Source of the DNA: Chloroflexota bacterium
Lineage (GTDB): Bacteria > Chloroflexota > Dehalococcoidia > SM23-28-2 > RBG-16-64-32
Length of the DNA stretch: 64,000 nt
Assembly: GCA_029262695.1 (NCBI GenBank)
Contig: JAJCYV010000003.1
Coordinates: forward strand, 55,171 to 119,170
Direction: 5' to 3'
Part shown: positions 9,507 to 15,184 of the stretch, piece after piece
Numbering within the stretch: the first letter of the stretch is position 1
Layout: each line of letters starts with the position of its first letter
The notes under the pieces: generated by a model
Seen by the model: the letters and a program-made list of their open reading frames with translations, nothing else
The model's database searches: none
Told to the model about the DNA's origin: nothing
Made by a program: the position numbers and the translations under genes

Positions 9507-10856
9507 CTAGCTGCTGGTGGCGCGCCGTTTCGCGGCAATGGTCGCCGCGCCGCCGATGACGGCCAGTGCCGCGCCCATGACCAGGAGGAGCGAGAGCCCT
9601 GGAGCGCCGTCGCCGTTGGGCGGGGCGCCGCCCAACGGCGGTATGCCGTCTGGCGTGCTGGACGCGCCCGCCGAGGTCTTGAGCTTCGTCTCTTCCTCAT
9701 CGCAGTTGTTCGTCAGGTCAGTCTCCGGGGTGCTGGTCCAGAGGCAGACGACGTTAGCGAGCGGGCTCTCCGCCCCCTGGTTGACGAGGACGATGTAGGA
9801 GATCACAGCAGCCTCACCCCCGGCGATGCTGCCAAGTAAGCACATCGTTTCATCGCAGGAGCCCTGGCTCGGCGTGGACGAGATCAGCGAGATGTGGTTG
9901 GGCAGCGTGTCGGTGACGAAGACGTTCTCGGCGGTGATGGCGCCGATGTTGTTGACGGTCACCGTGTAAGCCAGCGTGCCGTCAATCGCCACCGGGTCCG
10001 GCGAGTCGGCCTTGACGATCGTCAATTCGGTGGCCGGCTCTTGGCTCGGTGTCGGCGAAGGCGTTGGGCTCGGAGTTGGCGGCAGGGTCGGAGCCGGCGA
10101 CGGAGTCGAGCTTGGCGTCGGTGACGGAGTTGGGCTCGGTGTTGGCGGGGGAGTTGGGCTCGGTGTTGGCGGCGGAGTTGCGCTCGGTGTTGGTGACGGA
10201 GTTGGGCTCGGTGTGGGCGACGGAGTCGGGCTTGGAGTGGGTGTTGGCGTCAACTGCACGCAGAAGGGCCCGCCTGTTCGATATGTCCAGCCGTCGTGAT
10301 CGTGGGGGCCGGTGTGTACCCAGATCCACGTGCGCTCCGGGCCGCTTTCGAGCGGTAGGTGGAATGTGATTTCGACCGTAAGTGGCATGTCATCGTCACT
10401 GATGCTGCTCACGAGGACTTCGTCCGGGGCGACCAGTTCGATGGTGCCGCCGCTGGTGTGCATGTCCTTGACGTCCTCGACTTGCCAACAGCCGCTCAGC
10501 TTTACGAAGTCGATGTCTTCCCACTGGATGCCGATCCTGGAGGCACTCACGTCTTCGTCAGGCTGGCAGCCATCGATGACGTATGTGTATGTGTCGCTAG
10601 AGCCGGGCACGGAGGGGCTGAGGAGCGTGGCGTCGTAGCCCGGATCTTCGCAGGCCGCCGCGACATCGACTGAATCGGCTCTCGCGTCCGCCGGAGCCGT
10701 GCCGCTGAGCGCGAGATAGGCTATCAGCAGGGCGGCGGCCAGGAGGGCGATGCGGCCGAGCGGCAGGGTCTTGCGCGCGAGTGCGCGGGTGCGGGCGCGG
10801 TCCGCCACCGGCAGGAACTCCCGGTCTTCTTTTGGGCCGCGTCTTCGCAGGTTCAT
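9507..10856 (-). CDS. Secreted/surface protein with (PTPS)n linker, DUF11-like domain and C-terminal TM anchor
   Basis: N-terminal TM/signal; [12 protein letters not shown] linker; DUF11-like [28 protein letters not shown]-terminal hydrophobic segment followed by AAKRR. Confidence 0.75.
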
Positions 10857-11032: not shown

Positions 11033-11899
11033 CTAGGTGGCCGCTGTATTGAGGCTGAGGTCGAGGGCCGGAGCGGAGTGAGTGATGGCGCCGATCGAGA
11101 TGAAGTCAACGCCGGCCTCCGCGTACTCGCGTGCGTGTACGGCGGTGATCCCACCGGAAGCCTCTAGAAGAGGCCGCGGATCGCGGTTGGCGGCGAATTC
11201 GACTATCGGCCGGACTTCTGCCGGCGTCATGTTGTCGAGCAGCAGCTCTCCGGCGCCGGACTCGATCGCCTCGCGGGCCTCGTCGAGGGACGTGACCTCG
11301 ACTTCGATGCGCAGACCCGGGTTTGTTTCGCGGGCGAGGCGGACGGCGTCCACGATGCCGAGCCCGCGGGTGCGGACGGCGGCGAGATGGTTGTCCTTGA
11401 TCATCACGGCGTCGGCGAGGTCGGTGCGGAACGTCTCCGCCCCGCCCGCCTGGGCGGCGTACTTCTCGGCGAGGCGCAGTCCGGGGATCGTCTTGCGAGT
11501 GTCGCGGAGGCGGCAGCCGGTGCCGTCGAGAAGGCGGATGACGGCCGCTGTGGCCGTGGCGATACCGGAGAGATGCGTCAGGAAGTTGAGGGCGGTCCGC
11601 TCCGCCCGCAGTAGCGCGCCGAGAGAGCCTTCTACGGTGGCGACGGTGTCGCCGCGCGAGACGGAGTCTCCGTCCGCGGTGGACGGCTGCCAGGCGGCGT
11701 CGGCGTCTATCTGCAAGAAGGCGCTCCGGGCGAAGGCGAGGCCGGCGATGACGCCCGGCGCCCTGGCGATGATGGCGCCACGGCCGCGCTGGCCGGGTGG
11801 GACGAGTGCCGAAGTCGTGGCGTCGTCGTGGGCGCGGTCCTCCGCAAGCGCCTCCCGGACGAGCCGGTCGACGAGGTTGGCGTCGAGCGCTATCGCCAC
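11033..11899 (-). CDS. nadC: Nicotinate-nucleotide diphosphorylase (carboxylating)
   Basis: LRDTRKTIPGLRLAEKYA, MIKDNHL, DNMTPAEV, ASGGI motifs. Confidence 0.95.
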   Translation of the reverse strand: MAIALDANLVDRLVREALAEDRAHDDATTSALVPPGQRGRGAIIARAPGVIAGLAFARSAFLQIDADAAWQPSTADGDSVSRGDTVATVEGSLGALLRAERTALNFLTHLSGIATATAAVIRLLDGTGCRLRDTRKTIPGLRLAEKYAAQAGGAETFRTDLADAVMIKDNHLAAVRTRGLGIVDAVRLARETNPGLRIEVEVTSLDEAREAIESGAGELLLDNMTPAEVRPIVEFAANRDPRPLLEASGGITAVHAREYAEAGVDFISIGAITHSAPALDLSLNTAAT

Positions 11900-12774
11900 G
11901 GGTCGTCCTGCGGTACGAACTCGGCTTCAAGGCCGAGGTCGGCGAAAACACGGATCATATCGTGGCGGAGGACGAGCGCTTCCGTCGCGAAGTGCGACGC
12001 GCCGATGAGGTTGAGCGGCACATCGTCCACGAACGCGTCGAAGCCGGGCCGGTGCTCTTCCGCCCAGGGCCCGCCGTGGCGCACTCGAAAGTCGCCGGTG
12101 ACGTAGGTGTCGCAGCCGGCGTCCACGGCCTCTTGCATAAACGGCGGGAAGGCGGCGCCGCCGGCCACGATGGCAACGCGGCGCACGTTATCGTGCACCT
12201 GCTTTGTGTCCAGGCGCTCGACGTCGCAGCCCCGCCGCACGCGGCCGAGGAGTTCGTCGAAGGCGACCGTGTCGATTTCGCCGACAACGCCCGCGTGGCC
12301 GCCCACGTAGCCGGCGAACGTCTCCGTTGTGGGCACGCCGATCGCGCGGGCGAGGGCGCGGGAGGTCGATACCGAGTCGTGGCAGTCGAGGGGTGCGTGC
12401 GCGGAGTAGAGGGAGATGCCGCCGGCGAGCATCCGCTCCAGTGTTTCAGTGCCGATCGGCAACAGGCCGCGGTCCGAAGTCTCGAAGTCCATCGGGTGGT
12501 GGGTGAAGACGAGGGCCGGCCGCCCGTAAGCGCGTCGCTCGACCTCCGCGATGACTTCATCGGACGGGAAGACGAGCGTGTAGACGGGCTGGACTTCGGC
12601 GGCGTTGGCCAGCATGAGGCCGTTGTGGCGGCGCATGAATGCGGGCGTCGCGTAGTCGGCCAGGGGGATGCCGGCGTCGTCGCAGAAGACTACGATCTCG
12701 GCGAAGTCCTCGGGCGGGTAGCCGTCGAGGTGGAAGAAGTCGTCCAGGTGAGCGGCGACGTCTGCGGTTCGCAT
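11890..12774 (-). CDS. Nif3-like dinuclear metal center protein
   Basis: MRTADVAAHLDDFFHLDGYPPEDF start; VFTHHPMDF, YSAHAPLD, TGDFRVRHGG motifs. The longer ORF upstream of 12774 is not supported. Confidence 0.85.
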   Translation of the reverse strand: MRTADVAAHLDDFFHLDGYPPEDFAEIVVFCDDAGIPLADYATPAFMRRHNGLMLANAAEVQPVYTLVFPSDEVIAEVERRAYGRPALVFTHHPMDFETSDRGLLPIGTETLERMLAGGISLYSAHAPLDCHDSVSTSRALARAIGVPTTETFAGYVGGHAGVVGEIDTVAFDELLGRVRRGCDVERLDTKQVHDNVRRVAIVAGGAAFPPFMQEAVDAGCDTYVTGDFRVRHGGPWAEEHRPGFDAFVDDVPLNLIGASHFATEALVLRHDMIRVFADLGLEAEFVPQDDPWR

Positions 12775-12908: not shown

Positions 12909-13040
12909 GGAAAGAAGTAGCTTCCCGACCCGGAAACCGCACTTCCCAGGCATCCAGGTCTGCGACCCGGAACCGCGGGTTGCCCCGTGACCCCGGCGAG
13001 TCCCTTGCTCCTGAGTCGCTACGACTCAAGTCGAGAAGCT
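12909..13040 (-). ncRNA. Candidate structured ncRNA, copy 1 (E1)
   Basis: Closing stem AGCTTCTCGAC (13040-13030) with GTCGGGAAGCT (12929-12919), one mismatch, then ACTTCTTTCC; CGGG-GCAA-CCCG hairpin; GAGTCG-tag-CGACTC hairpin; promoter-like TTGCAG-N18-CATACT just upstream. Shared with E2. Confidence 0.6.
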
Positions 13041-13110
13041 GCCGGGAGTATGTCGCAGCCGCCGGGAAGGCTGCAAGACGTTTTTCCACACAGTCAACAA
13101 ATGAACATTT

Positions 13111-13150
13111 TGGGGATGGAGCAGGGAACAGGGAGCAGGGAGCAGGGGAT
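13111..13150. repeat. Low-complexity CAGGGAACAGGGAGCAGG tract
   Basis: gcagggaacagggagcagggagcagggg between the two ncRNA candidates. Confidence 0.75.
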
Positions 13151-13199
13151 GCGGATCGCGCAAGAGTGACCGCAGCGCGGGGGCGGCGTGTCGTGGGCG

Positions 13200-13403
13200 A
13201 AAAAAGTAGCTTCCCGAAAGAGGGGCCGCGCGAGGGCCTTGATCCAGGTCTCGGGTCGGGCGGACCTCTGGTTGCCCATCAGCCGTTCCGCCGAGTCCGT
13301 TCTCGCTGGTCCTGCACGCTGCCGGGTCTGGTCCCCTGAGCTTTCGGTTGCCCGTCCACCCTGGGTCGCTTCCCCGGAGCGCTGCGACTCGTTTCGAGAA
13401 GCT
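13200..13403 (-). ncRNA. Candidate structured ncRNA, copy 2 (E2, larger paralog of E1)
   Basis: Closing stem AGCTTCTCGAAA (13403-13392) with TTTCGGGAAGCT (13219-13208), followed by ACTTTTTTC; TGG-GCAA-CCA and CGG-GCAA-CCG hairpins; promoter-like TTGTCG-N16-TAATAA upstream. Confidence 0.6.
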
Positions 13404-13558
13404 AATGGCATTATTACCTGCCTGTCTGAAGGCGACAATCCCTTTGTCCACACCGTCCACAAATAAACAGAATCGGGCCGAAAATCGGGGGATCCGGCGC
13501 CTGCCCGCGCTTGTGAAATGCTAGGGTGCGTAAGCGGCTGATAGCGGCAGGCGGGCTC

Positions 13559-15184
13559 CTACGCCGCTCCTCCGTCTCTTTGGAAGACGAGGTGGCGGCG
13601 CCAGTCTTCGCGGGGTTCGGGGAAGTCGTTGCGGTAATGCGCGCCGCGGGACTCCTCGCGGGCCAGCGCGGCCTCGGTCACCAGGCGGCAGCACGTCAGG
13701 AGGTCGGCCAGCTCCTGCGACGGCCTGTCCGCCGGCGCGGCCAGGGTCGACTGCCAGGCCGCCAGGACGGATGCGGCGCGGGCGAGAGATTCGCCGTCGC
13801 GGACGATGCCGGCCTCCCGCCACATCAGCGACTGCAACGCCTCGCGGGTGAGCGGCGGAACGTCGCCGGCGCCGGGGGCGTCGCCCGGCACCGGGCGGAG
13901 GCTCCTGGCGTCCGGTGCCGGTTCCGCGCGGCCGCTCGGGGCGTCGATTGTGCGCTGGACGACGCGGTTGGCGAAGACGACGGTCTCCAGAAGCGAGTTG
14001 GAGGCGAGGCGGTTGGCGCCGTGGACGCCGGTGCAGGCGCATTCGCCGGCGGCGTAGAGGCCCGCGACGTTCGTCTCGCCCCAGGTGTTCGTGCGCACGC
14101 CGCCCATCGTGTAGTGCGCGGCGGGGGCGATGGGGACCGGCTGGCGCGTGATGTCGAGGCCGTTGTCGGCGCAGAAGCGGTAGATCTGCGGGAAGCGCGC
14201 GGTGACGAGCCCGGGGTCGAGGTGCGTGACGTCGAGCAAGACGTGGTCCGAGTTCGTCGCCAGCATGCGGTCGCGGATGGCGCGGGCGACGATATCGCGG
14301 GGGGCCAGCTCGGCGCGGTCGTCGTAGGCGGCCATGAAGCGCTCGCCGTTCGCGTCGCGGAGGAGGCCGCCCTCGCCGCGCACCGCCTCCGAGATGAGGA
14401 ACGGCTGGACGCCGGGCAGGTGGAGTGCCGTCGGGTGGAACTGGACGAACTCCATGTCCATGATCTCGGCGCCCGCGCGGTAGGCGATGGCGATGCCGTC
14501 GCCGGTGGCGACTTCGGCGTTCGTGGTCGTCTGGTACATCTGGCCGGCGCCGCCCGTCGCGAGGATGAGCGCCCGGCAGTCGTAGGTGGTGCGTTCGCCG
14601 GAGGTGGTGTTTAGCGCGCGGATGGCGGTGGAACGAAGCTTTCCTGCGTCATCATCCGTGGTAGGGGCGGTTCGCGAACCGCCCCTACGCGGTCCGTTGC
14701 CGTTTGTCTGAGTCACGATCTCCGTCGCGATTGTGTGTTCGAGGACCGTGATGCCCTCGAGGCGGGCGACGGAGGCGAGCGTGAGTTCGATGTGAGCGCC
14801 GGTGGAGTCGCCGCCGGCGTGGAGGATGCGCGGAGTCGAGTGTGCGCCCTCGGTAGCGAGCGCGACTTCGCCGTGCACCGTGTCGAAGGGGACGCCCAGG
14901 GAGACGAGGTCGCCGATGCGGTCGGAGGCCTCGTCTGTGAGGACGCGCGCGGCCTCCTCGTCGACGAGGCCGGCGCCGGCCTCGATCGTGTCGCGCAGGT
15001 GCTTCTCGGGCGGGTCGCCGGGGCCGACGGAGGCGGCGATGCCGCCCTGCGCCCAGCGCGTGTTGCAGTCGTCGATGCTGCCCTTCGTGAGGACGAGCAC
15101 GCTGCCGTGCTCACGGGCGAGGATGGCGGCGTAGAGGCCGGCGATGCCGGAGCCGATGATCAGGTAGTCGTAGGTGGTGGTCAT
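13559..15184 (-). CDS. nadB: L-aspartate oxidase
   Basis: LIIGSGIAGLYAAILA, RWAQGGIAAS, HSTPRILHAGGDSTG, HYTMGGVRTNTWGETNVAGLYAAGECACTGVHGANRLASNSLLE. Confidence 0.95.
   Translation of the reverse strand: MTTTYDYLIIGSGIAGLYAAILAREHGSVLVLTKGSIDDCNTRWAQGGIAASVGPGDPPEKHLRDTIEAGAGLVDEEAARVLTDEASDRIGDLVSLGVPFDTVHGEVALATEGAHSTPRILHAGGDSTGAHIELTLASVARLEGITVLEHTIATEIVTQTNGNGPRRGGSRTAPTTDDDAGKLRSTAIRALNTTSGERTTYDCRALILATGGAGQMYQTTTNAEVATGDGIAIAYRAGAEIMDMEFVQFHPTALHLPGVQPFLISEAVRGEGGLLRDANGERFMAAYDDRAELAPRDIVARAIRDRMLATNSDHVLLDVTHLDPGLVTARFPQIYRFCADNGLDITRQPVPIAPAAHYTMGGVRTNTWGETNVAGLYAAGECACTGVHGANRLASNSLLETVVFANRVVQRTIDAPSGRAEPAPDARSLRPVPGDAPGAGDVPPLTREALQSLMWREAGIVRDGESLARAASVLAAWQSTLAAPADRPSQELADLLTCCRLVTEAALAREESRGAHYRNDFPEPREDWRRHLVFQRDGGAA
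14661..14688. repeat. Perfect 28-bp palindrome GTAGGGGCGGTTCGCGAACCGCCCCTAC within nadB
   Basis: Self-complementary over 28 nt; related to the element at 8822-8855 and other GTAGGGGC repeats in this window. Confidence 0.9.

Follow-up and report, generated by a model that had tools for sequence, protein, structure and literature searches.

Between nadB and a DUF34/NIF3 gene, this Chloroflexota genome has an intergenic region with two similar elements on the minus strand, here called E1 and E2, which raises the question of whether they are genes for a structured RNA and, if so, of what kind. The locus lies within the 64,000-nt stretch of DNA that we analyzed (the window), in a nadA-nadB-nadC neighborhood, with nadB upstream (13559..15184, minus strand; Pfam FAD_binding_2 and Succ_DH_flav_C) and the DUF34/NIF3 gene downstream (11890..12774, minus strand; Pfam PF01784; start codon picked by eye). 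The motifs quoted in the original prediction were all found on the minus strand and in the order given, namely AGCTTCTCGA, GAGTCGyAGCG, GGACTCGsCGG, GGGCAACC, AGACCTGGAT and TCGGGAAGCTACTT. The replacement of GAC:GTC by GAAA:TTTC in the terminal stem with preservation of pairing was also read correctly, as was the presence of about 70 additional nucleotides in E2. E1 occupies 12919..13041 (minus strand), or about 123 nt with the terminal stem included, and E2 occupies 13208..13403 (minus strand), 196 nt by the same measure, as judged from its predicted fold and from its orthologue in G003. E2 consists of the family core plus a hairpin insertion of about 70 nt (approximate limits 13313..13385, minus strand), which in predicted folds forms a separate hairpin with its own CGG-GCAA-CCG tip; this hairpin is present in G003 too and missing from the other short copies. 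The tandem duplication was confined to one genus, represented by our genome (G000) and G003, and a DNA search of that genus recovered the orthologous pair at 87% (E1) and 72% identity. Elsewhere in the window, a 449-aa open reading frame (9507-10856, minus strand) encodes a long PTPSPTPSP repeat and resembles a repeated-domain surface protein.

Beyond the genus, a DNA search of the taxonomic family gave further copies, and the distribution of the elements was investigated by searching whole genomes with covariance models. The resulting RNA family comprises 27 copies, which are 25 model matches together with E2 and its G003 orthologue. Of the 25 genomes from the order, 14 carry one to four copies each. 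Model R1 matched 23 places in 12 of the 25 genomes, 22 of them significantly and the E2 orthologue of G003 at a borderline E of 0.007, and model R2 gave 25 significant places in 14 genomes. E1 was matched at 75.9 bits, and E2 gave a partial match (23.2 bits, E 0.024). The covariance-model search proposed in the original prediction therefore placed the likeness of E1 and E2 beyond chance. A third copy of our own genome lies outside the window (G000:C27:80417-80531), beside genes for a CBM-domain protein and cytidylate kinase. Model R2 found no match among a further 370 or so sampled genomes of the class, and in a sample of 399 genomes from the phylum our own genome alone was matched, although such large searches filter more strictly and may miss distant relatives. 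A pattern scan with GCGGAAGGGCRACCNGAAGCC across all genome contigs and viral contigs returned 13 genome-contig stretches, nine of which were confirmed by the model and are labelled Chloroflexi or Dehalococcoidia. Matches from Phycisphaerae, Nomurabacteria, Variovorax and Terriglobia were not confirmed, the last being the bare motif alone (E 0.56), and a match in a viral contig (E 0.47) is apparently a chance occurrence within a coding region. Detection of the RNA family was thus confined to a single order of uncultivated Chloroflexota, within the class Dehalococcoidia to judge from the contig labels.

We then considered the anatomy of the individual copies. All 27 carry a predicted sigma-70-type promoter whose -10 box ends 4 to 6 nt upstream of where the RNA model begins, at a spacing of 17 to 18 nt; the best -35/-10 score reached at least 9 of 12 in 24 of the 27 copies, compared to 0.3% of shuffled upstream sequences. 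Promoter scoring placed the -10 hexamer of E1 at 13047..13052 (CATACT) and its -35 hexamer, weaker than in most copies, at 13071..13076 (TTGCAG, 18-nt spacer), both on the minus strand; the weakest -35 boxes of the family are those of E1 and of its G003 orthologue, G3_1. For E2, the corresponding hexamers are AATAAT (13410..13415) and TTGTCG (13433..13438, 17-nt spacer), likewise on the minus strand. At the other end, a terminal stem of 9 to 13 bp is followed in all 27 copies by a U-rich run, with 4 to 9 T within 12 nt after the stem, which has the form of an intrinsic terminator; in E1 this run is ACTTCTTTC (12910..12918, minus strand) and in E2 it is ACTTTTTTC (13199..13207, minus strand). 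The 5' strand of the terminal stem forms the 5' end of the predicted RNA and its 3' strand, followed by the T-rich run, the 3' end, so that the stem doubles as part of the terminator. RNA lengths are about 108 to 126 nt, or 145 to 198 nt where extra hairpins are present. Since a promoter and a terminator accompany every copy, each is a self-contained gene in terms of sequence, and we infer that the family, E1 and E2 included, is transcribed.

Folding supported a structured product. E1 had a z score of -3.5, with none of 200 dinucleotide shuffles folding as well, and E2 a z score of -2.5, with 2 of 200; the mean over 25 copies was -4.1. Folded singly, nearly all copies formed an unbranched rod whose internal loops are rich in purines and whose tip carries a GCRA cap. 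From its base, the rod consists of the terminal stem, short helices with small loops and a UCAGG/CC-GA segment, then a purine loop, commonly 5'-AAGAA / GGANN-3', the helix GGGACUCG/CGAGACCU (spelled GGG-A-CUCG/CGAG-A-CCU), a variable helix and a second loop, commonly GGAA/NGAA. The tip reads GC-[GGAA]-GG-GCRA-CC-[NGAA]-GC in many of the copies located at purF, at smc-ftsY and beside the CBM/cmk pair. A by-eye look did not establish a kink-turn reading of the AAGAA/GGA loop. The original prediction had proposed separate hairpins, which agrees with the minimum-free-energy (MFE) fold of E1 but not with the single long rod shared by nearly all other copies. Indeed, the MFE fold of E1 is branched into several hairpins, including GAGUCG-UAG-CGACUC, and that of G3_1 is branched likewise. 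The rod of E1 was 4.9 kcal/mol less stable than the branched fold (-58.8 versus -63.7 kcal/mol), and either fold is therefore possible for E1. An insertion near the tip, different from that of E2, was present in copy G12_4. A 145-nt member (L043 1501-1645, minus strand) with such an insertion shows that extra hairpin domains can be accommodated at several places of the rod.

The helices of the rod vary by compensation, and the purine loops and the tip are among its most conserved parts. In a MAFFT alignment built without structure, and with the consensus structure derived from the same sequences, we counted 13 branch-level compensatory double changes, against 2.96 +/- 1.65 (maximum 10 among 1000) in a null in which substitutions were shuffled along the same tree. 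Sliding the partner strand reduced the double changes to between 0 and 2, and standard pairs filled 85% of pair cells, compared to 56% in the null. A separate test on 20 sequences gave the same picture. In the divergent copy G17_1 (family f2, located after purF), the rod was kept with most helix letters different. An R-scape check, as proposed in the original prediction, was performed as an R-scape-like pairwise test: over all column pairs, no pair was individually significant (lowest E 3.6, at the low power afforded by 25 related sequences), and with the test restricted to the given structure one pair reached E<0.05. Since the pairwise test is underpowered at this sample size, we relied on the whole-structure, tree-aware test; with no single significant pair among all column pairs, support for the fold is collective and applies to the structure as a whole.

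The original prediction had not recognized the pair as a known riboswitch or as 6S, tmRNA or RNase P RNA, and our comparisons agree. Rfam 15 gave no match at gathering score over the whole window. At weak thresholds, the element drew three chance-level matches (E 0.87 or above), and 11 homologous loci drew none with E<=1. Bacterial small SRP RNA (RF00169) resembles the new RNA as a small rod that has purine-rich internal loops and ends in a GNRA-type cap; the new family differs in having several paralogues and no Rfam match, and the sole RF00169 match of the genome lies elsewhere (G000:C7:23733-23832, 62.8 bits). An identity with SRP RNA was therefore rejected. The Chloroflexi-1 motif (RF01698), listed from Chloroflexus aggregans only (PMC2864571), is also a structured-RNA candidate of Chloroflexota, but the Rfam scan of the new RNA did not match it. 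Ms1 of actinobacteria is described as structurally related to 6S RNA and occurs in a group without 6S (PMC4191392, PMC9130861); Ms1 binds the RNA polymerase core, and the new RNA matched no Rfam family. A search of the openly accessible literature found no description of the RNA. Promoter, terminator, homologues and compensatory changes, the marks of an independent structured sRNA gene, were thus all found, and at the level of sequence the tandem copies E1 and E2 belong to a real, independently encoded and previously undescribed family of structured RNA genes.

Genomic context bears on two further explanations. Paralogues occur at no fewer than four unrelated loci, i.e., after nadB, after purF, between smc and ftsY and beside the CBM/cmk pair, and their positions are fixed across genera; the position after a purF-like phosphoribosyltransferase gene is common to families f1, f2 and f3. 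Two copies between nadB and the DUF34/NIF3 gene, and many others after nadB or purF, both genes of nucleotide metabolism, could suggest a cis-acting element (a riboswitch, an attenuator or a 3'-UTR structure) belonging to the nad genes or to the NIF3 gene. This explanation is largely refuted and highly improbable: all copies have their own predicted promoter and a terminator that precedes the next gene, and no consistent position upstream of one gene class was found, which also sets the RNA apart from riboswitch and leader classes. Downstream genes differ between genera or face the opposite way, which rules out a leader, and the additional loci at smc-ftsY and CBM/cmk argue in the same direction. 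The several copies per genome might alternatively reflect a nonfunctional repeat or a mobile-element remnant spread by copying. Covariation and synteny refute this reading, which retains a negligible probability: positions are common to genera, the helices evolve by compensation and the promoters stand at a fixed distance, and the neighbors tested included no identified mobile-element genes. Of the two explanations offered in the original prediction, that of a mobile structured RNA falls with these observations; that of duplicated sRNA genes is borne out by the predicted promoter and terminator of each copy, the conserved homologues, the covariation and the lack of an Rfam match.

Upstream of their promoters, E1 and E2 share a 20-bp element made of tandem 9-mers, located by exact-match search at 13082..13101 (TGTTGACTG/TGTGGAAAA) and 13444..13463 (TGTGGACGG/TGTGGACAA), respectively, both on the minus strand; promoter and element are kept in both copies in G000 and in G003. 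The element TTTGTKGACNNYGTKGANAA had 10 exact matches in the 15 genomes of the family, each 39 to 40 nt upstream of a copy of the nadB-locus type, to which it was exclusive in these genomes; a reversed control pattern had no match in the same 15 genomes. Nine of the copies with the element lie after nadB; the tenth, G12_4, has other neighbors and groups with them in the tree. The nadB-locus copies are probably under a dedicated regulator acting at the shared element. The 9-mers resemble the DnaA box of high-GC bacteria. Matching boxes did not cluster around dnaA in our own genome, and DnaA is therefore just a lead.

As to function, we favor, with a probability of roughly 0.55, the view that E1 and E2 are tandem duplicates within an sRNA family of up to four paralogues per genome whose RNA is a trans-acting, protein-binding structured platform. 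The transcript would act in trans, bound by a protein through the conserved purine loops and the tip, and the bound RNA would be a decoy, a regulator or a scaffold; the paralogues would be expressed separately. It is the location of the conservation that suggests protein binding, and action in trans is likewise presumed.

Two other trans-acting modes appear less likely. Exposed purine-rich stretches such as AAGAAGGGA might pair with pyrimidine-rich mRNA sites, making the RNA an antisense sRNA, with which the independent promoter and terminator, the several paralogues and the conserved purine-rich loops are compatible. We nevertheless consider this unlikely: a long conserved unpaired seed is missing, no internal loop in the predicted rods listed exceeds 7 nt per side, and the conserved loop letters of the two strands face each other, as in purine mismatch motifs. 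A 6S-like RNA, which would bind RNA polymerase as an open-promoter mimic and replace 6S in the order, seems more doubtful still. Like 6S (RF00013), the new RNA is a predicted independently transcribed rod, and tandem copies of 6S are known too, for instance in the Bacillus cereus group (PMC7726162). Against a length of about 200 nt for 6S, that of the new RNA is about 110 to 125 nt. Truncated 6S-1 RNAs of 78 to 82 nt still function in vitro (PMC8876501). Moreover, RF00013 had no match in our own genome, at the copies or in the tested genomes of the order. However, this absence is uninformative because, among 198 genomes of the class, the same model detects 6S in no more than 4; in most of the class, 6S may be very divergent or replaced. 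What defines 6S is a central bubble, large and relatively unstructured, that separates two helical arms (PMC8876501). This bubble is missing here, the largest symmetric internal loop among the copies listed being 5x5 and once 7x7; the conserved letters differ as well, and covariance models gave no match in either direction, that of the new family finding none among the 6S RNAs of the same class. The new RNA is accordingly not 6S itself. At the speculative end, a long shot at best, the family could be an order-specific global regulatory RNA, a rod that has purine-mismatch loops but no bubble and binds RNA polymerase or some other central protein through a mechanism unlike that of 6S, with a dedicated factor, possibly DnaA, switching the nadB-locus paralogues and so tying the RNA to the cell cycle.

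E1 and E2 thus point to a well-supported RNA gene family without an Rfam match, in a bacterial group known chiefly through metagenomes. Its paralogues have expanded in number, its terminal stem incorporates a terminator, and it has an upstream element seen nowhere else in the tested genomes. The family comes with an exact predicted transcript map, a covariance model and a candidate regulator-binding site.
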